The notes beneath the pieces were generated by a model. The model was not told where the DNA came from. It made no database searches and was given only the letters and a program-made list of their open reading frames with translations. From Nitrospira sp. (GTDB lineage Bacteria; Nitrospirota; Nitrospiria; Nitrospirales; Nitrospiraceae), in contig JAOUGT010000009.1 of the NCBI GenBank assembly GCA_029865485.1, positions 1 through 37,074 on the forward strand: 37,074 nucleotides of DNA. The letters run 5' to 3'. Positions 1-10,148 of the stretch are shown here, in pieces. Numbering within the stretch: position 1 is the first letter of the stretch; each line of letters begins with the position of its first letter. The position numbers and the translations under genes are program-made.

Positions 1-1237
1 GCGGAGTCACGATGATCACTAATTCCGTTTCACTCTTCTGGAAGGAGCTACTGCGAAACAAGGCACCGAGAATCGGCACTTCTCCGAGGAACGGAACCTT
101 TTTGACCGATTCCCTGACGTTGTCACGCAGTAACCCGCCGATGGCGAAGCTCTGTCCATCCGCCAATTCGATCGTCGTTGCTGCCCTCCTGGTCGTAATG
201 GCAGGCACTACGAATCCCTGTGTTCGTAACGCATTTGTGAAGTCCAGCTCTGACACTTCCGGCGCGACATTCAGGCTGATGTGCTTGCTATTCAGAACAT
301 TTGGCGTAAAGACCAGCCCCACACCGAATTTCTTGAATTGAATCGTAACCAGACCAAAGGCTTGCGGCACGGGAATCGGAAACTCACCACCGGCAAGGAA
401 GGCCGCTTCCTGTCCATTCAGCGCCATCAAGGTTGGCTTGGCCAATACTTTCAGCAGATTTTCTTCTTTGAGGGCATCGACAAATCCAGTCCAAGACGTG
501 CTCCCGGCATTGAATCCAAACGCGCCTTGGATCACTTGCGTCGCTTCTGTGACTATGGTTGCCGTCTGCCCGATCGGATGACTCAGACTGGCAAGTCTCG
601 TCAGATTCGCCAATAGCGACACACCAAAGTAGTCATTGCCGATTCCAGTAAAATTGATCCCGAGCCGTTTGATCAATTCACGATTCATTTCAGCGACGCG
701 GACTTCCAACATGACTTGCTGCACACCGCCCACTTGCATCGCATTCACTATCTTCTTCGGCGCATAGGCTTCAGCCATGCTCAAGGCCCGATTCAAATTG
801 TTGGCATTCGAGGCAGTGCCCGAGAGCGTGATGTGATCGTGGTCGGAAGTGACCAGGATGCCCTGTTCTTCCGGCAAGATCTTATGTAGGTTTTCTTTCA
901 AACGGGTGACATCCGGCGCGATCACTACGTCGTACATGCCCATCATCTTGCCGCTCTCATTCCAGAGCGTCAGGTTTGTCACTCCGGTCGTCTTGCCCGT
1001 CAGATAGATCTGGGTCGGAGAGAGCACGACCGTGTCGGCGACATCTGGATTGGCCAACGACGCCCGCTTGATCGCTACAGGCAGATCCAATACCTTCGAT
1101 TTCCCCACGGTCAGCTCAAGCTTTTGAATATCGCGCTGCTCAGTAGCTCCCGCAACCGGATCCTGCCCAAAGGCTTGAGCCCCAGCCAAGATCGTGAGGG
1201 TACAGCCCATGATCGTAATCATATTGCGTAAATTCAT
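1..1237 (-). CDS. cpaC: Tad/Flp pilus secretin, CpaC/RcpA family (3' end outside the window)
   Basis: This is an outer-membrane secretin expected to form the channel for the Flp (type IVb) pilus. I translated it from the minus strand; the ORF track missed it because it has no stop in the window. It has an N-terminal signal peptide (MNLRNMITIMGC, ending near AFGQ), then the pilus-secretin N-domain (VGKSKVLDLPVAIKRASLANP), a BON-like segment (DHDHITLSGTA, AEAYAPKKIVN) and the secretin domain, ending in the family hallmark LVIIVTP at the edge. About 412 codons are visible, so little is missing. GGAGG lies 9 nt before the ATG at 1237 but only 3 nt before the ATG at 1243, so I prefer 1237. It is last in the visible flp-cpaA-cpaB-cpaC order and would assemble with CpaB. 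The family assignment is secure. Confidence 0.92.
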   Translation of the reverse strand, partial: MNLRNMITIMGCTLTILAGAQAFGQDPVAGATEQRDIQKLELTVGKSKVLDLPVAIKRASLANPDVADTVVLSPTQIYLTGKTTGVTNLTLWNESGKMMGMYDVVIAPDVTRLKENLHKILPEEQGILVTSDHDHITLSGTASNANNLNRALSMAEAYAPKKIVNAMQVGGVQQVMLEVRVAEMNRELIKRLGINFTGIGNDYFGVSLLANLTRLASLSHPIGQTATIVTEATQVIQGAFGFNAGSTSWTGFVDALKEENLLKVLAKPTLMALNGQEAAFLAGGEFPIPVPQAFGLVTIQFKKFGVGLVFTPNVLNSKHISLNVAPEVSELDFTNALRTQGFVVPAITTRRAATTIELADGQSFAIGGLLRDNVRESVKKVPFLGEVPILGALFRSSSFQKSETELVIIVTP

Positions 1238-1275: not shown

Positions 1276-1908
1276 TTAAAACTTCACTGCATTCACCGAT
1301 GTCCCCTTGATCACTTCGACCGTCACAGACTGCACATCATGAGGCACCTTGGTTCCAGGTGGTTCAGGATAGATCTTCAGAAAGTTCAGGATCTTTTTTG
1401 GCGCATAGGCTTCCGCCACCGCCAAGATCTGGCCCAGGCGGGCCTCACTCGACACGGTCCCGAACACCGTCACATGGTCGTGGGTTCCCCTCAGGCGAAT
1501 ATTCGTCTCATCCGGCAATAATTCTGCCAACTGCTGCTTCAACCGGACGATGTCTACTCCGACATCGAGATCAAGGATGGCGAGCACCTGGCCATCTTGT
1601 CCCCACAAGGTGAGGTTCGTGGTGCCATAGCCTTTCCCAGTCACGTAGATCTGTTTAGGACTCAGCACCATGGCATCGGCAATCTGCGGATCAGCCAGCG
1701 AGGCCCGTTTGATCGCCACAGGCATATCGACCACGGTCGATTTGCCGACTACTAGGTTCAATTGTTGGGCTTCCTTAGACTGCGAGATAAGATGCAGGCT
1801 TGCATTCTTTGCCATGATGGCTGAAGGGCCCGTCAGAAGAACCCCGCTGCACACCAGGACCGTTACCCATCGTCCACGAACACTTGATCGATGCTGTGTG
1901 ACCTGCAT
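1276..1908 (-). CDS. Secretin N-domain-only paralogue (pilus assembly protein, CpaC N-terminal type)
   Basis: A 210-aa exported protein that aligns closely with the first ~150 residues of the adjacent secretin: VGKSTVVDMPVAIKRASL matches VGKSKVLDLPVAIKRASL, and AEAYAPKKILN matches AEAYAPKKIVN. It has a signal peptide, the T2SS/T3SS pilus N-domain and a BON-like segment, but no secretin beta-barrel. Its last residues (VEVIKGTSVNAVKF) instead resemble the C-terminus of CpaB (VEIIKGDVRKEITF). The ORF track starts at 1992, but an ATG at 1908 preceded by GGAGG with a 7-nt gap begins right at the signal peptide and avoids overlapping cpaB. It lies 19 nt downstream of cpaB in the same operon. Inference: an accessory periplasmic ring protein or assembly factor made by partial duplication of cpaC. 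Confidence 0.85.
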   Translation of the reverse strand: MQVTQHRSSVRGRWVTVLVCSGVLLTGPSAIMAKNASLHLISQSKEAQQLNLVVGKSTVVDMPVAIKRASLADPQIADAMVLSPKQIYVTGKGYGTTNLTLWGQDGQVLAILDLDVGVDIVRLKQQLAELLPDETNIRLRGTHDHVTVFGTVSSEARLGQILAVAEAYAPKKILNFLKIYPEPPGTKVPHDVQSVTVEVIKGTSVNAVKF

Positions 1909-1927: not shown

Positions 1928-2743
1928 CTAGAACGTGATTTCCTTACGGACGTCACCCTTGATGATCTCGACCCGGAACCCGCCTTCCCCATTAGTCATC
2001 GGCTTGGGGCGGTATGAACTTAAGAGCGATCCAACCTGAGCGCCCTTGGTCAACACCTTCTCGCTATTGAGCGGATTCCGTAAAGCGAGTCGCAGCTTCC
2101 CTTGATTGGAGGCCAGCGCCAGCTTCTCCGCCTCATCTACATCCACTTCCACGGTAATGACCTGGACCTGTTTGGGTTCTTCATCTTTGCCCTTTCGCTC
2201 CATTTGCGTGCCAGCCGCCAGGACCTTCACGTTCTCCAAGATCATCTTTGCCATCGCATGGCCTTGTTTGCCCGCATCCGGCTCGATCGTCACCATCACG
2301 TCCACGCGATCGGCCGGCTTGATGAACCCAGCGACTCCGATCACATCATCGACTTTCACCGACATGGCTCGCTTGTTCGGATCCGTCACTGCCGCCACTC
2401 CGCCGACCGCCCCTACCGGTGCCAGCTTTGATTCCAGCAGCATCTCGTTTCTCCTTAAATCTACGAGCAATACCCGGTCTTTGACGGCCTCAACACTTGT
2501 AAAGTGTCCTTCAGGAATTATCCCGGTGGGCATCTCCTGAGCCAGCATCATTTCGGGCGTCAATTTCGTTCCCCAGGGAATATCCGCATTGGCCACCAGG
2601 ACTTGCACATTTTTGCCTGTGGGCAATGCAGCTGCCAGCAGCCGGCTTTTCTCGTTCTGGAGCCATGAGAACACGAGGACGCTGGTGATGACCCCCAGCA
2701 CCACCGCCAATCCGAAAAACACCAGAGGCCGATACCGCTTCAT
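1928..2743 (-). CDS. cpaB: Flp pilus assembly protein CpaB/RcpC
   Basis: A 271-aa CpaB-family protein. An N-terminal signal anchor (PLVFFGLAVVLGVITSVLVF) is followed by a SAF domain (VLVANADIPWGTKLTPEMM, about residues 48-110) and the RcpC domain (NKRAMSVKVDDVIGVAGFIKPADRVDVMVT), ending in VEIIKG. CpaB proteins are periplasmic or outer-membrane-associated partners of the CpaC/RcpA secretin. The start at 2743 is supported by AGGAGG about 9 nt upstream. The gene lies between the prepilin peptidase and the secretin genes on one strand, as in canonical tad operons. The length is normal for the family, and I see no disruption. Confidence 0.95.
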   Translation of the reverse strand: MKRYRPLVFFGLAVVLGVITSVLVFSWLQNEKSRLLAAALPTGKNVQVLVANADIPWGTKLTPEMMLAQEMPTGIIPEGHFTSVEAVKDRVLLVDLRRNEMLLESKLAPVGAVGGVAAVTDPNKRAMSVKVDDVIGVAGFIKPADRVDVMVTIEPDAGKQGHAMAKMILENVKVLAAGTQMERKGKDEEPKQVQVITVEVDVDEAEKLALASNQGKLRLALRNPLNSEKVLTKGAQVGSLLSSYRPKPMTNGEGGFRVEIIKGDVRKEITF

Positions 2744-2846: not shown

Positions 2847-3371
2847 CTACCCCCCGAAGGGTTGGATTCCTCCGAGAAACAGTAGGGTGCCGGCAGCAAT
2901 CGCCAGCCCGTACCGTAACTTGAAGGGAAGTTGTAACTCCCCCATCCCGGTCGATCCTCCGGTCACGAATGCGCCATATGCCGCGAATGCCAATTTCCTG
3001 GATGTGGCGGCGAGGCCCCATTGATAGCCCATGGCACCCAGCGCATAGACGCCTCCCGCCATGACTGAAAGGAGGGCGACAGAGGTTGCGCCAAATGAAC
3101 CAACCATTGAACCAACCGCCGCCATTAATTTCACATCGCCGGCTCCGATGGCCTTGAAGGCATAGGGAAGGAGAAACAGCCCCATCCCCACACCAAGTCC
3201 GGCCATGCTAGACAAGGCACCCTCCGGTCCTCCTACCCAGGCCTGAAGCAGAATACCGATGCCGATTGCCGAAAAGGTGAGCCAGTTTGGAATACGAGAC
3301 CATCGAAGATCGTTGTAGACTGCCATGATAAGCAGCATGGTCAGCGCGAGGATCAGTATGGGTTGCATCAT
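2847..3371 (-). CDS. cpaA: Prepilin peptidase, A24 family (CpaA/TadV type)
   Basis: A 174-aa polytopic membrane aspartic protease that would cleave the Flp prepilin leader. Both catalytic-aspartate contexts are present: YNDLRWSRIPN with Asp21, and the GxGD signature GAGDVKL with Asp79. The short length and the absence of the N-terminal cysteine-rich methylase domain of PilD fit the CpaA/TadV branch. About five hydrophobic segments are visible. The likely substrate gene, flp, lies directly upstream, separated by a strong hairpin. The start at 3371 (ATGATG) has only a weak Shine-Dalgarno sequence, consistent with low expression compared with the pilin. Confidence 0.92.
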   Translation of the reverse strand: MMQPILILALTMLLIMAVYNDLRWSRIPNWLTFSAIGIGILLQAWVGGPEGALSSMAGLGVGMGLFLLPYAFKAIGAGDVKLMAAVGSMVGSFGATSVALLSVMAGGVYALGAMGYQWGLAATSRKLAFAAYGAFVTGGSTGMGELQLPFKLRYGLAIAAGTLLFLGGIQPFGG

Positions 3372-3701: not shown

Positions 3702-4122
3702 GGTTTATACCTTTCAGTTAATTAAAGTTGTGGGTGATAACAGCGCCTAACATAACTCTGCTTCTTACCCCCCTAGTCGTGCACAGCTTAAGGATGCAGG
3801 AGATTCCCTCATCCTCTTACCCCGGGGTGTCATGCTAGAGGTGTGTTCCGCATTGCTTCCAGACATTGCAATCCATCGGCCAGAACTCGATCCACTCCAA
3901 CTGACTGTTTTCTCAGCATACGCTTGTGCCTCCTTCGTTGACTGCGGCTCCCCGGCCTCAGGTGAGACCTACCAAACCAGCCCCAGATGCGGTTCAGAGG
4001 CCGCAGCCGAGCAGCACATCACCCAAACAACAATTAGAAAATAGGTTTTGTTTGACCGTTGCTCAGCCTCGCGGCATGCTGACGGTACAGAAACGCTGTT
4101 CACACGAGGGAGGCTGACCGTG
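3702..4122. other. Divergent intergenic region between flp and the TPR lipoprotein gene
   Basis: About 420 bp that should hold promoters for both directions. Track ORFs here (3832-4044, 3926-4117) show no recognisable protein. A perfect palindrome ACCCCGGGGT lies at 3819-3828 and could be an operator. I found no convincing sigma-54 -24/-12 pair and no clear sigma-70 promoter. Confidence 0.4.
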
Positions 4123-5127
4123 ATGAGATCGCTACAATCTCTGAGGTTCCTATTGACTGTAGGGCTTGCTGTTGGAGCTGGTACATTCACCGGATGCTGG
4201 GGAGCCAAGGATCAGGCTGCATCGTCAGTGGATATGGCCGAATATCGGAAAATGATGGATGAACAGAAGAAACAGCAAGAACGCCTTGAAGCGGCTACCT
4301 CTTCCACCCCTGAACTCACGGCTGAGGAACATGAACGTAAGGGCGACCTTGATGCACAAGCCCGAAATTATCCATTGGCAAGCCTGCACTATGACAAGGC
4401 CTTGAAGGCCGATCCCACCCGCAACCCCGTTCGTCTCAAGCTCGGTCAGGTGTTCCTACAGCAGGGTCTTCTCGATCAGGCCCTGACGCACTTTCAAGAC
4501 CTACGGACCAGAGAGCCGGAATCTGCACCGGTCCATGAAGGCCTTGGACAGATCTATCTGATGCAAGGCAAGCACCAGGAAGCTGAGAAGGCCCTGACCA
4601 AGGCCATCTCTCTCAACCCAGCCAGCTGGCAAGCGCATAATTTACTGGGGCTCCTGTACGACCAACAGAAACGCCATGCCGAAGCCATCGCGTCCTACCA
4701 CACGGCCTTGACCCATCGCTCGCGCGAGCCAAACGTCTTGAACAATCTCGGCCTCGCCTACGCATTGAGCGGCAACTACGAAGCCGCTATCGACTCTTAT
4801 GAACAGGCTGTATCGGCCGGCTCGAACAATCCCAAACTCTATAACAACCTCGGTATCGCCTATGTGCAGCGCCGACGCTATGCGGACGCGTTGAACACGT
4901 TCAAAAAGGCGATGGATGAACCACGCGCCTATAACAACCTCGGTGTTGCACTTCTTGGCGTCAACAATGCCAAGAAAGCAGTGGTCTGCTTGGAGAAAGC
5001 CATCGAACTCAATCCGCAGTACTATGAAAAAGCCTCGGAGAACCTTCGAATCGCCCGCCAATCCGTTCCTAACACCACCAGTGGAGCAACTGCATCAAGT
5101 ATGGCCGAGACCAGCTCCTGCCCATAG
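4123..5127 (+). CDS. TPR-repeat lipoprotein, TadD-like
   Basis: A 334-aa lipoprotein with a lipobox FTGC (Cys25) after a hydrophobic signal (SLRFLLTVGLAVGAG), then a charged linker and about seven tandem TPR units over residues ~70-310. Repeats are recognisable as LKLGQVFLQQGLLDQALTHF, VLNNLGLAYALSGNYEAAID and LYNNLGIAYVQRRRYADALN. The track start at 4048 is upstream of the signal peptide; the ATG at 4123 has GAGGGAGG about 10 nt upstream, and an adjacent GTG at 4120 is also possible. TadD-type TPR lipoproteins help localise and assemble the tad secretin. The divergent position next to the flp cluster makes a similar role likely, but TPR proteins are generic, so this is an inference. Confidence 0.85.
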   Translation: MRSLQSLRFLLTVGLAVGAGTFTGCWGAKDQAASSVDMAEYRKMMDEQKKQQERLEAATSSTPELTAEEHERKGDLDAQARNYPLASLHYDKALKADPTRNPVRLKLGQVFLQQGLLDQALTHFQDLRTREPESAPVHEGLGQIYLMQGKHQEAEKALTKAISLNPASWQAHNLLGLLYDQQKRHAEAIASYHTALTHRSREPNVLNNLGLAYALSGNYEAAIDSYEQAVSAGSNNPKLYNNLGIAYVQRRRYADALNTFKKAMDEPRAYNNLGVALLGVNNAKKAVVCLEKAIELNPQYYEKASENLRIARQSVPNTTSGATASSMAETSSCP

Positions 5128-5663: not shown

Positions 5664-6674
5664 TTAGGCCGCAGAAAATATGCGGCGATCGAGCCCATGC
5701 TTATGGAGCAACCGCTGGAATGCACGGCGCTCTTTGCGTGCGGCGCGGGCCGCTTGGGAAATATTCCCCTGATGTACGGAGAGCAACTTGCTCAGATACG
5801 TCCGCTCGAATTCGTCGATCATCTTCGCCTTCATCGCCTGAAACCCGCACTGACCTATGACCATCTCCGTTGGCCCCTCCGACACAACCGTCGCTGCGAC
5901 TCCAGCCGGCTCATGATCAGGCAGGTCCAGGTCGGCCGCCTCAAGAACATCGCCTATCGCCATCGCTACCGCGCGATGAATCACCGCTTGCAACTCCCTC
6001 ACATTCCCTGGCCACGCATAGTTCATCAACTTCATCATCGCGTCTGCCGATAGCCGGACTGCTCCCTTACCGAATTCTTCCGCGGAGCGATCCACAAAGT
6101 GCTTGGCCAGATCGGAAATATCTTCCCGTCGGTCACGCAGTGGAGGAAGCACTACGGACAACACATTCAGACGATAGAACAAGTCTTCCCTGAATTGGTG
6201 GGCTTCGACCAAATATCGCAAGTCCGTATTGGTCGCAGCCACGATCTTCACATCGACGGCGCGACTTTTGGTGGAACCCAGCGGCCTGAATTCCTGATCC
6301 TGAAGGACACGCAACAGTTTGCTCTGTGCCACCATGTTGAGACTGTTGATTTCGTCGAGGAACAGGGTCCCGCCATCCGCTTCATGAAACAACCCGTGTT
6401 TCTCGGCGAGGGCACCGGTAAATGCTCCCTTGCTGTGGCCGAATAGCTCGTTCTCCACTAGATGATCCGGCAGGGCCGCGCAATTCACGGGCACGAACGG
6501 TTTACCCCTCCGCTCACTGGAATAGTGAAGCGCTCGCGCAAATAGTTCTTTTCCTGTTCCAGTCTCTCCTGAAATCAAGACTGTCGACTTAGAGGCGCTC
6601 AAGCGCGGGATCATGTTCTTTGCCTTGAGAAAAGATTGGCTATTTCCGATGAATAGTTCGTCCCATTGCGACAT
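5664..6674 (-). CDS. Sigma-54-dependent activator, AAA+ plus Fis-type HTH, no sensor domain
   Basis: A 336-aa bacterial enhancer-binding protein. The AAA+ domain begins almost at the N-terminus: Walker A GETGTGKE (residues 36-43), the sigma-54-contacting loop GAFTGA (83-88), Walker B GGTLFLDEI (101-109) and the WPGNVREL motif. The C-terminal Fis-like helix-turn-helix is NISQAARAARKERRAFQRLL (about 304-323). There is no receiver, GAF or PAS domain, so activity must be controlled by expression, by a partner protein or by DNA context, as in PspF/HrpR-type activators. The ATG at 6674 follows AAAGGAGA with good spacing. A ~120-bp sequence upstream resembles the one upstream of bcsA, which suggests a shared regulatory circuit (inference). 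Confidence 0.93.
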   Translation of the reverse strand: MSQWDELFIGNSQSFLKAKNMIPRLSASKSTVLISGETGTGKELFARALHYSSERRGKPFVPVNCAALPDHLVENELFGHSKGAFTGALAEKHGLFHEADGGTLFLDEINSLNMVAQSKLLRVLQDQEFRPLGSTKSRAVDVKIVAATNTDLRYLVEAHQFREDLFYRLNVLSVVLPPLRDRREDISDLAKHFVDRSAEEFGKGAVRLSADAMMKLMNYAWPGNVRELQAVIHRAVAMAIGDVLEAADLDLPDHEPAGVAATVVSEGPTEMVIGQCGFQAMKAKMIDEFERTYLSKLLSVHQGNISQAARAARKERRAFQRLLHKHGLDRRIFSAA

Positions 6675-7203: not shown

Positions 7204-7908
7204 TTAGAAGGGAACATACACTTCTAACCCGCCGTATGCTCCATTGAGGAACGTTTGGGAGTATTGATAGCCGCCCTTGAGTGTCAGGTAAAACCACCCA
7301 ATCGGTACCTGGGCAATGGGTCCGGTTTGCACGGCATAGAAATCCTTATTCCCCATACCGGCAATATCCCAGCCAAGATAGAGAGAACAGCAGTTCTGGT
7401 CGTTCTTATACACCAGCCTGGTCGCCCTCAAGCGGCTCCAGACTAACCCATCCAAGTTGGTATAGGAGACGATCGCATGAACAGTTCCCTGTTCATGCCA
7501 CCGAAAGGCTTCCCCTTGCAGTTGGAAACCGATGTCCTGTTCATGGCTCTTGCCTCCGCCCACTAGATCTGCCTGTTTCCATCGCAATTGAGGTCCTGCA
7601 AACCCTAGGACAGTCCAAGGCCCTTGCCGGTATTTCAATCCGAGGGCCGGTGTGGCGAATTGAACCTCCGCATCGCGGATGGTACCGCGATCCTTAAAGG
7701 AATACCCGAGCCCAGCTCCCATAAATTGGACAAAGGGCTGTAGATTCGAAGATGTGGCCATGATGGGAGTCCGGACACCCATGTAGGCGTAATACTGGCT
7801 GTGGTCGTCCATCTGAAACCCGGTAAAGACATCCCCGGCCCCTGCGATGCCAGGCCAGGATAGAACTGCCGCGAATATCATGCCGCACGTGCGGTGAGTT
7901 CTTGCCAC
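7204..7908 (-). CDS. bcsS: Cellulose biosynthesis BcsS-like outer-membrane beta-barrel protein
   Basis: A 234-aa protein with a Sec signal (MARTHRTCGMIFAAVLSWPG, cleavage near AGA) followed by a beta-rich body that opens with GDVFTGFQMDDHSQYYAYMG and ends with aromatic-terminated strands (GGLEVYVPF), typical of small outer-membrane barrels. The pattern and the position directly after bcsA match the BcsS family (CBP_BcsS), whose function is poorly defined. The start is GTG at 7908, with GGGAG 7 nt upstream inside the bcsA 3' end, giving a 31-bp overlap. An alternative ATG at 7881 would form an ATGA overlap but would lose the basic residues of the signal peptide. Recognition of BcsS is from memory of the family pattern. 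Confidence 0.72.
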   Translation of the reverse strand: MARTHRTCGMIFAAVLSWPGIAGAGDVFTGFQMDDHSQYYAYMGVRTPIMATSSNLQPFVQFMGAGLGYSFKDRGTIRDAEVQFATPALGLKYRQGPWTVLGFAGPQLRWKQADLVGGGKSHEQDIGFQLQGEAFRWHEQGTVHAIVSYTNLDGLVWSRLRATRLVYKNDQNCCSLYLGWDIAGMGNKDFYAVQTGPIAQVPIGWFYLTLKGGYQYSQTFLNGAYGGLEVYVPF

Positions 7909-10148
7909 TTTTCGGCTCCCTTCTCTACCCGTTCAATCGTGAATCCAGCCAAGGTCCCATCCTCGCATTGTTGTACCCACTTCCGCTGTACACGCAAGGA
8001 AAATGAGTCAACGTACAACATGCCATTCTTTCCAATATGGTCAGGCGTGCCAGGAATATACACTGAGAGTCCTGCCGGAGAAACCTTATCCACCGTACCG
8101 GTCATGATGCGATCACGAAAGGCAAGGCGACAGTTGTGCCGGTACGGGCGACGACCATGCTGCCGATACGACACTCTGGACTTGGCGAACAGCTTCCGAA
8201 ATGCTCGAACCACAGTCCACAAGCTCCGGAATATCCCGGGCTCACTATCGGCATGATTCCAGACGGAAGAATCCGAAAATGTCATCGCGATCAGCGCTTC
8301 TGTGTGTGCTTCATTCATATGAATGAATTTCAGCCCGAGTTCCCGCAGATTCGGTGAGAGTTGTGTTTGGCGACATATGGTGGCATCCAGCGAAAGTGGT
8401 GCTCCGGTTGGATTCTTGATGATGCATCGCAGATCATCACGATCATTCCGCACCTGGTGACGCACAAGAACCCTAGCACCAGTTTCATTCACGTCGATGA
8501 TGAGGGCCTTGAGATGTTGTTTGTCGGCGACAATGTCACAGGTCATGCGCCGCTTGATGCGGAACTGTGCACGCCATTCCGGTGATTCTGCAGCCGCCAA
8601 GATTGCGACCGTGATAAGCACCAGATTGATACCGCCCCACAACAGGCTGACTCCTAATCCAGGAATTGGGATCTGTTCCCACCAAAGGCGTATTCCCATG
8701 ATTAGCCCCATTAACAGCAGTCCCATGATAGTGAGGTGAGGCAGCACACACGAAACCCGCGACAGACCTCGATTATCCTGTCCAACGCCCTTGGGGGTAA
8801 TGACAAATGGTCGCCGTTTCCGAGGGCGGAGCGCCGTTTTGAGGGTTGCCCAGCTGAGGGCCACACTGTCAGCTGTTTCATAGATATCAGACCAGAACGC
8901 ATTGCGAGTTCCTCGGCTGACGGTACGCAACATGACAAGCGTCGCGAGGTAATATGACCCAAAGAAATTGATAATCGAAGGAACATCTGCCGTGACCGGC
9001 ACAATATTGAACAGCAGTGTGAACAACGGTGCCACCAGGCAGATGACCCGCGGGATTCCATGCAGAAAGTAGAAAATGGATGCAAAATAGCCCAATCGCT
9101 GAGCCAGACTTAGTCCTCTCATCGTGAATGGATTCGACTGAAATAGGATCTGGACATGACCGGTCGCCCAACGAATCCGTTGCTTCATCGTGTTTTCGAA
9201 CGTCTCCGGCATGAGACCGACCGCTAGAACTTTATTGAGGTAACAGGAGCGATACCCTTTGGCATGAATGACCATACTAGTATGGATATCTTCCGTCACG
9301 GTCTCCGTCTGAAACCCACCGACTTCCTCCAAGACGCGACGACGAAGCAGGCCACAACTTCCGGCAAAAAAGGCACTGTTGTGTCGGTCTCGCCCTGATT
9401 GCAGCACCCGATAGAACAGACTCTGCTCATTCTTGAGGATGTGCTCGCTCCTGAGATTCTTCTGGAAAATGTCAGGATTATAGAAATGGTGTGGCGTTTG
9501 AACGATGGCGACTTGCTCATCCTGAAAAAGCCCCACCGTCTCATGCAAAAACTCGCTCACAGGAACATGATCCATATCGAATATGGCAATGAGATCCCCG
9601 TTGGTCTGCAGGAGGGCATGATTTAAGTTTCCGGCTTTGGCATGGAGCCGATTTACTCGTTGTATGTATCCACAGTTGAGGGATGCTGCGAGGTGTCGAA
9701 CCTCATCTCGTTGTCCATCGTCAAGCACGTAAACTCTATAGCGATCTTTTGGATAGCGTTGGTTGATGCAACCAACGAGAGTACGGCGAAGAATGTCGAG
9801 CGGCTCATGCACGACTGGCACAAAAATGTCCACGGTCGGATAGCCAGTCAGAGGCACCGATCTTCGATCAAGCGGAGCCCATGCGTGATAGGCAAAGAGA
9901 ACTACCTGAATAAACGCGTAGATTTCCGCGGCATAGACCATCCCACCAACCAGAAGACTAAGCCAATCGCCGCTATTGAAGGTGTAGAGTCCACGCCACA
10001 CCAGATACCTGGTGTAGAGGAACAGGGTCAACACCAGAATGATCTGCCGCCCTTGCTTTCTCCAGCTCAGCAAGCTGATTGCAGCCAGTACAATCAGTGA
10101 CAGCGGTATAGCGACCGACGGATCATAAAAGTTGTTCATCCAGTTCAT
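7878..10148 (-). CDS. bcsA: Cellulose synthase-like glycosyltransferase BcsA with two PilZ-like domains
   Basis: A 756-aa inner-membrane processive GT2 polymerase. N-terminal TM helices precede the catalytic domain: LDDG (142-145), FDMDH (the DxD motif, 191-193), TED (285-287) and QRIRW (the QxxRW motif, 323-327). Further TM helices follow to about residue 520. A PilZ domain (c-di-GMP receptor) begins near 526 with R530xxxR534 and DVNETG, where the usual Ser is Asn. A second PilZ-like segment follows with R666xxxR670 and KVSPAG (688-693). Tandem PilZ-like domains are unusual for BcsA, which normally has one. No bcsB, bcsC or bcsZ is nearby; only bcsS follows. The product may therefore be cellulose or another beta-glucan. 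The start at 10148 has AGAGG 9 nt upstream. Confidence 0.93.
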   Translation of the reverse strand: MNWMNNFYDPSVAIPLSLIVLAAISLLSWRKQGRQIILVLTLFLYTRYLVWRGLYTFNSGDWLSLLVGGMVYAAEIYAFIQVVLFAYHAWAPLDRRSVPLTGYPTVDIFVPVVHEPLDILRRTLVGCINQRYPKDRYRVYVLDDGQRDEVRHLAASLNCGYIQRVNRLHAKAGNLNHALLQTNGDLIAIFDMDHVPVSEFLHETVGLFQDEQVAIVQTPHHFYNPDIFQKNLRSEHILKNEQSLFYRVLQSGRDRHNSAFFAGSCGLLRRRVLEEVGGFQTETVTEDIHTSMVIHAKGYRSCYLNKVLAVGLMPETFENTMKQRIRWATGHVQILFQSNPFTMRGLSLAQRLGYFASIFYFLHGIPRVICLVAPLFTLLFNIVPVTADVPSIINFFGSYYLATLVMLRTVSRGTRNAFWSDIYETADSVALSWATLKTALRPRKRRPFVITPKGVGQDNRGLSRVSCVLPHLTIMGLLLMGLIMGIRLWWEQIPIPGLGVSLLWGGINLVLITVAILAAAESPEWRAQFRIKRRMTCDIVADKQHLKALIIDVNETGARVLVRHQVRNDRDDLRCIIKNPTGAPLSLDATICRQTQLSPNLRELGLKFIHMNEAHTEALIAMTFSDSSVWNHADSEPGIFRSLWTVVRAFRKLFAKSRVSYRQHGRRPYRHNCRLAFRDRIMTGTVDKVSPAGLSVYIPGTPDHIGKNGMLYVDSFSLRVQRKWVQQCEDGTLAGFTIERVEKGAEKWQELTARAA

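Follow-up and report, generated by a model that had tools for sequence, protein, structure and literature searches.

The window, the whole stretch of 37,074 nucleotides that was analysed, is an entire contig (G000:C182) of a Nitrospira-like draft genome. One end of a Tad pilus locus lies in its first 3.7 kb on the minus strand, with genes for a Flp pilin, CpaA, CpaB, a short protein and CpaC (Table 1).

Table 1. Features at the end of the Tad locus in the window
Feature	Position	Strand	Basis
Flp-type pilin, 59 aa	3522..3701	-	sequence reading
cpaA, prepilin peptidase	2847..3371	-	PF01478
cpaB (RcpC family; SAF and RcpC domains), inner-membrane alignment ring subunit, directly upstream of the short gene	1928..2743	-	TIGR03177, 4.6e-65
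CpaB tail VEIIKGDVRKEITF and stop, counterpart of the short-protein tail	1928..1972	-	translation, terminal pattern
Gene of the short, bridge-like protein (210 aa), with a signal-like start, pil_N, a BON/N3-like domain, a linker rich in Pro and a tail of the CpaB type	1276..1908	-	ORF and Pfam
Signal-peptide-like N-terminus of the short protein (basic, hydrophobic, ends AIMA; no lipobox cysteine)	1810..1908	-	translation judged by eye
pil_N domain (PF13629) of the short protein, residues 47-116, with a fold like that of VirB9-NTD; candidate socket for the tail of CpaB	1561..1770	-	Pfam, model, Foldseek
BON/N3-like domain of the short protein, residues ~123-180	1369..1542	-	weak Pfam BON; alpha/beta fold in models; same region as the secretin BON
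C-terminal tail of the short protein, VEVIKGTSVNAVKF and stop; predicted beta-hairpin	1276..1320	-	terminal pattern, matrix; hairpin of low confidence
cpaC secretin (pil_N, BON, Secretin), directly downstream of the short gene; truncated at base 1, where the contig ends	2..1243	-	Pfam
CpaC pil_N domain; proposed socket for the short-protein tail	920..1126	-	domain coordinates

In the Pfam search, the short protein was matched by PF13629 (T2SS-T3SS_pil_N) at 5.4e-23, and its BON match was sub-threshold. The Secretin domain (PF00263) was absent from it in the same search, as were the SAF and RcpC domains; the adjacent secretin has pil_N, BON and Secretin. The two proteins are 45% identical across residues 14-179, i.e. 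over the pil_N-BON part, and a BON-like domain is contained in all full-length short proteins. The earlier note had read this gene as a repeat of the secretin N-domain that lacks the barrel, and the reading was borne out: the repeat comprises the pil_N and BON/N3-like domains of a 210-residue protein encoded on the minus strand.

When each species was represented by one genome, close relatives were found at 70-91% identity to the short protein, and further ones at 58% and 47%. Among 236 genomes of the order, 63 gave a match. A separate short gene is present in at least 23 genomes, a lower bound that comes from our own reading of the loci, many of the genomes being drafts. These are 21 of the 31 positive genomes of the window's family (f1), the single positive genome of family f2 and one of the 31 of family f3; by our own tally, the other 30 positive f3 genomes are without it. 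Wherever the contig continues, the gene lies beside cpaB and/or cpaC, and between them where both are on the contig. Against five relatives, its dN/dS was 0.10-0.13, with no stops, and the last 15 codons had accumulated 3-6 synonymous as compared with 0-2 amino-acid changes. The short gene is a real gene under purifying selection.

A few loci met in the scan deserve mention. A contig binned as Verrucomicrobia (L009, JAJNBN010000556.1) carries a near-identical Nitrospira-type cpaB-short gene locus that falls inside the Nitrospira clade, and it is probably mis-binned. In one genus of family f3, orphan pil_N-BON proteins of 191-192 amino acids were found, ending in FLKFIHE/Q and having neither barrel nor tail (L029 1513-2088, L030 1504-2082 and L073 1479-2054, all on the minus strand); there was no cpaB or cpaC within the 3.4-3.5 kb fetched around them. 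An 873-residue frame in G361 was dismissed as a chance open frame across cpaB.

The C-terminus of the short protein resembles that of CpaB. Exactly two genes of the 3.5-Mb genome, the short gene and cpaB, end in V-[DE]-[IVM]-I-[K/R/S/N]-G-x7-F-stop; the chance expectation of this pattern is ~0.001 by a rough base-frequency estimate, and the reversed-pattern controls gave none. The match exceeds chance. A position matrix trained solely on CpaB tails from loci without a short protein was then applied to 2,666 ORF ends, and all 19 distinct short proteins scored at least 20.9, the best of ~2,550 unrelated ends reaching 11.8; two unclassified ends above 30 turned out to be C-terminal fragments of CpaB. 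Six tail positions (V197, V199, I200, G202, V208 and F210) do not vary among 12 relatives, and the linker ahead of the tail differs in sequence and length. TIGR03177 matches the window's CpaB as far as position 261 of the 262 in the model, which makes the tail region a general part of CpaB. The CpaB-like tail that the earlier note had described is thus confirmed by the genome-wide pattern and by the matrix separation, and its conservation by the short proteins of the 23 genomes, which always end with the V-x-V-I-x-G tail. When tails were compared in sets, the short and CpaB tails of the same locus were the least alike (5.4, as against 10.6 and 11.0), and such a divergence would be expected if each fitted a socket of its own. 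The idea that short tails would lie closer than the co-resident CpaB tails to the CpaB tails of loci lacking the short gene was not borne out as stated (10.6 vs 11.0), and of this comparison the divergence within the locus stands.

Two AlphaFold2 models were made, in each of which natural neighbours were read through the stop codon as a single, artificial chain. The pil_N and BON domains folded well (pLDDT ~80-95, with 91-95 for the pil_N of the short protein). In Foldseek, this pil_N matched 7o3t with an rmsd of 2.1 over 74 columns; the matches comprised VirB9 N-terminal domains and the Tad secretin 9wfd. In the model of the CpaB tail with the short protein, both tails formed two-strand hairpins (pLDDT 45-55) separate from the folded core, and in that of the short protein with the CpaC N-domain the tail reached a pLDDT of ~30. 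Outside this core, the tail is modelled as an extension that tends to form a hairpin. Of the structure prediction proposed for CpaB, the N-domain protein and the secretin, the folding of the domains stood, whereas the tails were of low confidence and their docking was not demonstrated.

Work on other Tad systems gives these modules a possible function. RcpC of P. aeruginosa, the equivalent of CpaB, was found to form a dodecameric periplasmic ring, and its C-terminal beta-hairpin was modelled as completing the sheet of the RcpA N-domain (PMC12307814). Deletion of the hairpin abolished Tad-dependent biofilm formation and aggregation, RcpC that had lost just the hairpin still co-purified with the RcpA N-domain, a point against the bridge reading given below, and it was proposed that the hairpin serves as a lid before the secretin is bound (PMC12307814). 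Caulobacter CpaI combines the fold of the RcpA N-domain with C-terminal strands, and it was modelled as a bridge in which the CpaB hairpin sits on the N-domain of CpaI and the strands of CpaI on the N-domain of CpaC. Many Tad systems are without a clear CpaI (mBio 2026). A common docking signal, as the earlier note had suggested from the shared tail, is well supported, though indirectly, by the published, function-critical CpaB/RcpC hairpin and the same conserved tail on the short protein.

Each of the known components shares a part with the short protein. The C-terminal hairpin tail is common to it and CpaB/RcpC (TIGR03177, PF16976), but the transmembrane, SAF and RcpC domains of the latter are missing. 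The VirB9-like pil_N and the BON/N3-like domain are shared with the CpaC/RcpA secretins (PDB 8odn; 8jvb, 9wfd), the barrel being replaced by the CpaB-type tail. GspC, through its HR domain, and PilP are inner-membrane partners of secretin N-domains. The task of linking inner-membrane parts to a secretin N-domain would be analogous; unlike these partners, the short protein looks soluble and of the signal-peptide type. CpaI (Caulobacter crescentus; Sinorhizobium smc04115 and sma1580) is likewise a small protein of the Tad locus with an RcpA/CpaC-type N-domain and a C-terminal tail, which is stranded in CpaI and predicted with low confidence to be a hairpin in the short protein, and the role of CpaB-CpaC bridge proposed for it is the one proposed here for the short protein. 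The short protein differs in having a BON/N3-like domain and a Pro-rich linker between N-domain and tail, in a tail of the CpaB sequence type (V-x-V-I-x-G...F) where the CpaI end contains cysteine, in the position of its gene between cpaB and cpaC, and in its grouping with the Nitrospirota secretins. By this analogy, it probably works like CpaI. It is not classed as CpaI, because it has the BON domain and appears to group with the Nitrospirota secretins; it is better regarded as a new form of the proposed Tad bridge, one whose tail is of the CpaB type.

The question of descent was addressed with trees; two alignments with rows mis-registered by MAFFT were left unused. With pil_N and BON together, the short proteins formed a paralogue group adjoining all Nitrospirota secretins, apart from the proteobacterial CpaC (96/94), and a single clade of short proteins was not rejected (p-AU 0.565). 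With pil_N only, the best tree placed them among the Nitrospirota pil_N domains (84/80). By sequence, the short protein appears to group with the Nitrospirota secretins, a placement that is not statistically decisive. The alternative that it is an orthologue of CpaI, with the BON domain gained here or lost in the alphaproteobacterial relatives and with no independent origin, is somewhat unlikely. It would account for the same proposed role and the same plan of an N-domain followed by C-terminal strands, and a short-plus-CpaI clade was not rejected in the pil_N-only tree (p-AU 0.241); both tree placements argue against it, however, as does the absence of BON from the five CpaI proteins sampled. 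A Nitrospirota cpaC, by its N-terminal half, is the probable source of the pil_N-BON part, and cpaB that of the tail. The gene-fusion origin mentioned in the earlier note is plausible. On our reading, the simplest route would be one tandem duplication that began at the end of cpaB and took in the N-terminal half of cpaC, which would yield both the arrangement of the genes and the chimera at once; the tree covers the pil_N-BON part, which it places as a paralogue of the Nitrospirota secretins.

Taken as a whole, it seems rather likely that the short protein serves the Tad machine as a bridging subunit in the periplasm, in a chain of CpaB, short protein and CpaC. This reading builds on its domains, the conserved place of its gene, the purifying selection, the tail shared with CpaB and a natural fusion described below. 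The CpaB hairpin would add a strand pair to the pil_N of the short protein, whose own CpaB-type hairpin would plug into the pil_N of CpaC; the BON domain may act as a spacer or a ring-contact module, and the chain would connect the ring in the inner membrane with the pore in the outer membrane. This pairing of tails and sockets was proposed because the short protein has both the socket and the plug of CpaI; we infer the two docking steps, the stoichiometry and the spacer role. As many Nitrospirota Tad loci are without a separate short gene, the bridge is not always needed.

A natural fusion was found on contig C159 of genome G038 (L065 3055-4116, minus strand). Its 353 residues run from the CpaB core through a BON domain to a short-protein-type tail, which ends in VKIEMIKGTSVSNVKFSPQANQ; both CpaB's own tail and the pil_N of the short protein are absent. 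This is what the chain model predicts, since a covalent link between CpaB and the bridge makes these two parts redundant. The fusion was seen once, on a 6.8-kb contig of a draft MAG, and a second Tad locus of the same genome (C186) has a separate short gene. Its BON domain is 65% identical to that of its own secretin and up to ~66% to those of short proteins, and either could be the source. A second fusion suspected at G395:C21 was a secretin cut by the contig end.

The fusion bears on two other functions that could be given to the short protein. As a gate or assembly checkpoint, it would bind the CpaB tail or the CpaC N-domain competitively and keep the rings apart until assembly; with a socket and a plug it could occupy either partner, and the lid proposal for the RcpC hairpin (PMC12307814) points the same way, but the covalent joining of CpaB core, BON and tail is more in keeping with a structural link than with a cap that can be taken off, and the published CpaI data favour a bridge, so that this function is improbable. 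Still less probable is a self-assembling ring under the secretin, with each tail in the pil_N of the next copy. Plug and socket do lie on one chain, as in donor-strand systems, and ring formation is considered possible for the N-domain of RcpA, which resembles VirB9 (PMC10499894); on the other hand, the short tail has diverged from a CpaB tail that would be using the same socket, and the pil_N socket is missing from the fusion. As for the distinct ring that the earlier note had thought possible, it is more specific to read the protein as a tier that bridges the CpaB ring and the secretin. That the gene is a broken secretin duplicate in decay, as the missing barrel and the identity to its neighbour might suggest, is practically out of the question and was refuted by the same boundaries and tail in 23 genomes, the low dN/dS and the lack of stops.

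Models of the connection between the inner-membrane ring and the secretin of Tad pili are only beginning to appear, and they come from two proteobacteria. The short protein is a candidate connector outside the Proteobacteria, visibly built from both modules that are thought to dock, and the natural fusion offers a direct test of the pairing of plug and socket. With less than even confidence, a general Tad code may be suggested in which a CpaB-type hairpin plugs into pil_N, the Nitrospirota having independently built an extra periplasmic tier, through fusion of the N-terminal half of CpaC with a copied CpaB tail, that one lineage fused into CpaB. If so, the distance from inner ring to secretin would be set by swapping modules, namely the short bridge, the CpaB-BON fusion or a longer CpaB linker.

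The f1 loci without a short gene have a long, low-complexity CpaB linker before the hairpin, of ~72-149 residues (L048, L050, L058, L071, L099, L108 and L109); the values are 102-149 residues, with ~72 in G370 and G435. In f1 loci with a short gene, the linker has 37-45 residues, and it has 38 and 44 in L103 and G038:C186, which both carry short genes. Linkers of 40-48 residues were found in family f3 and in an f34 locus (L062), all without a short gene, and the length pattern, which does not hold throughout, is taken as a hint concerning reach.

Beyond the Tad genes, the window encodes a TPR protein (4108-5127, plus strand) that has a lipobox-like TGC close to its beginning, divergent to the adjoining Tad genes and a candidate TadD-type pilotin. 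A cellulose-synthase-like glycosyltransferase of 756 amino acids is found at 7878-10148 (minus strand), followed by a gene for a small outer-membrane-type protein. A sigma54-activator-like ATPase with a C-terminal helix-turn-helix (5664-6674, minus strand) adjoins the pilus genes, and a similar gene also lies beside the fused locus of G038 (L065 5731-6726, minus strand).
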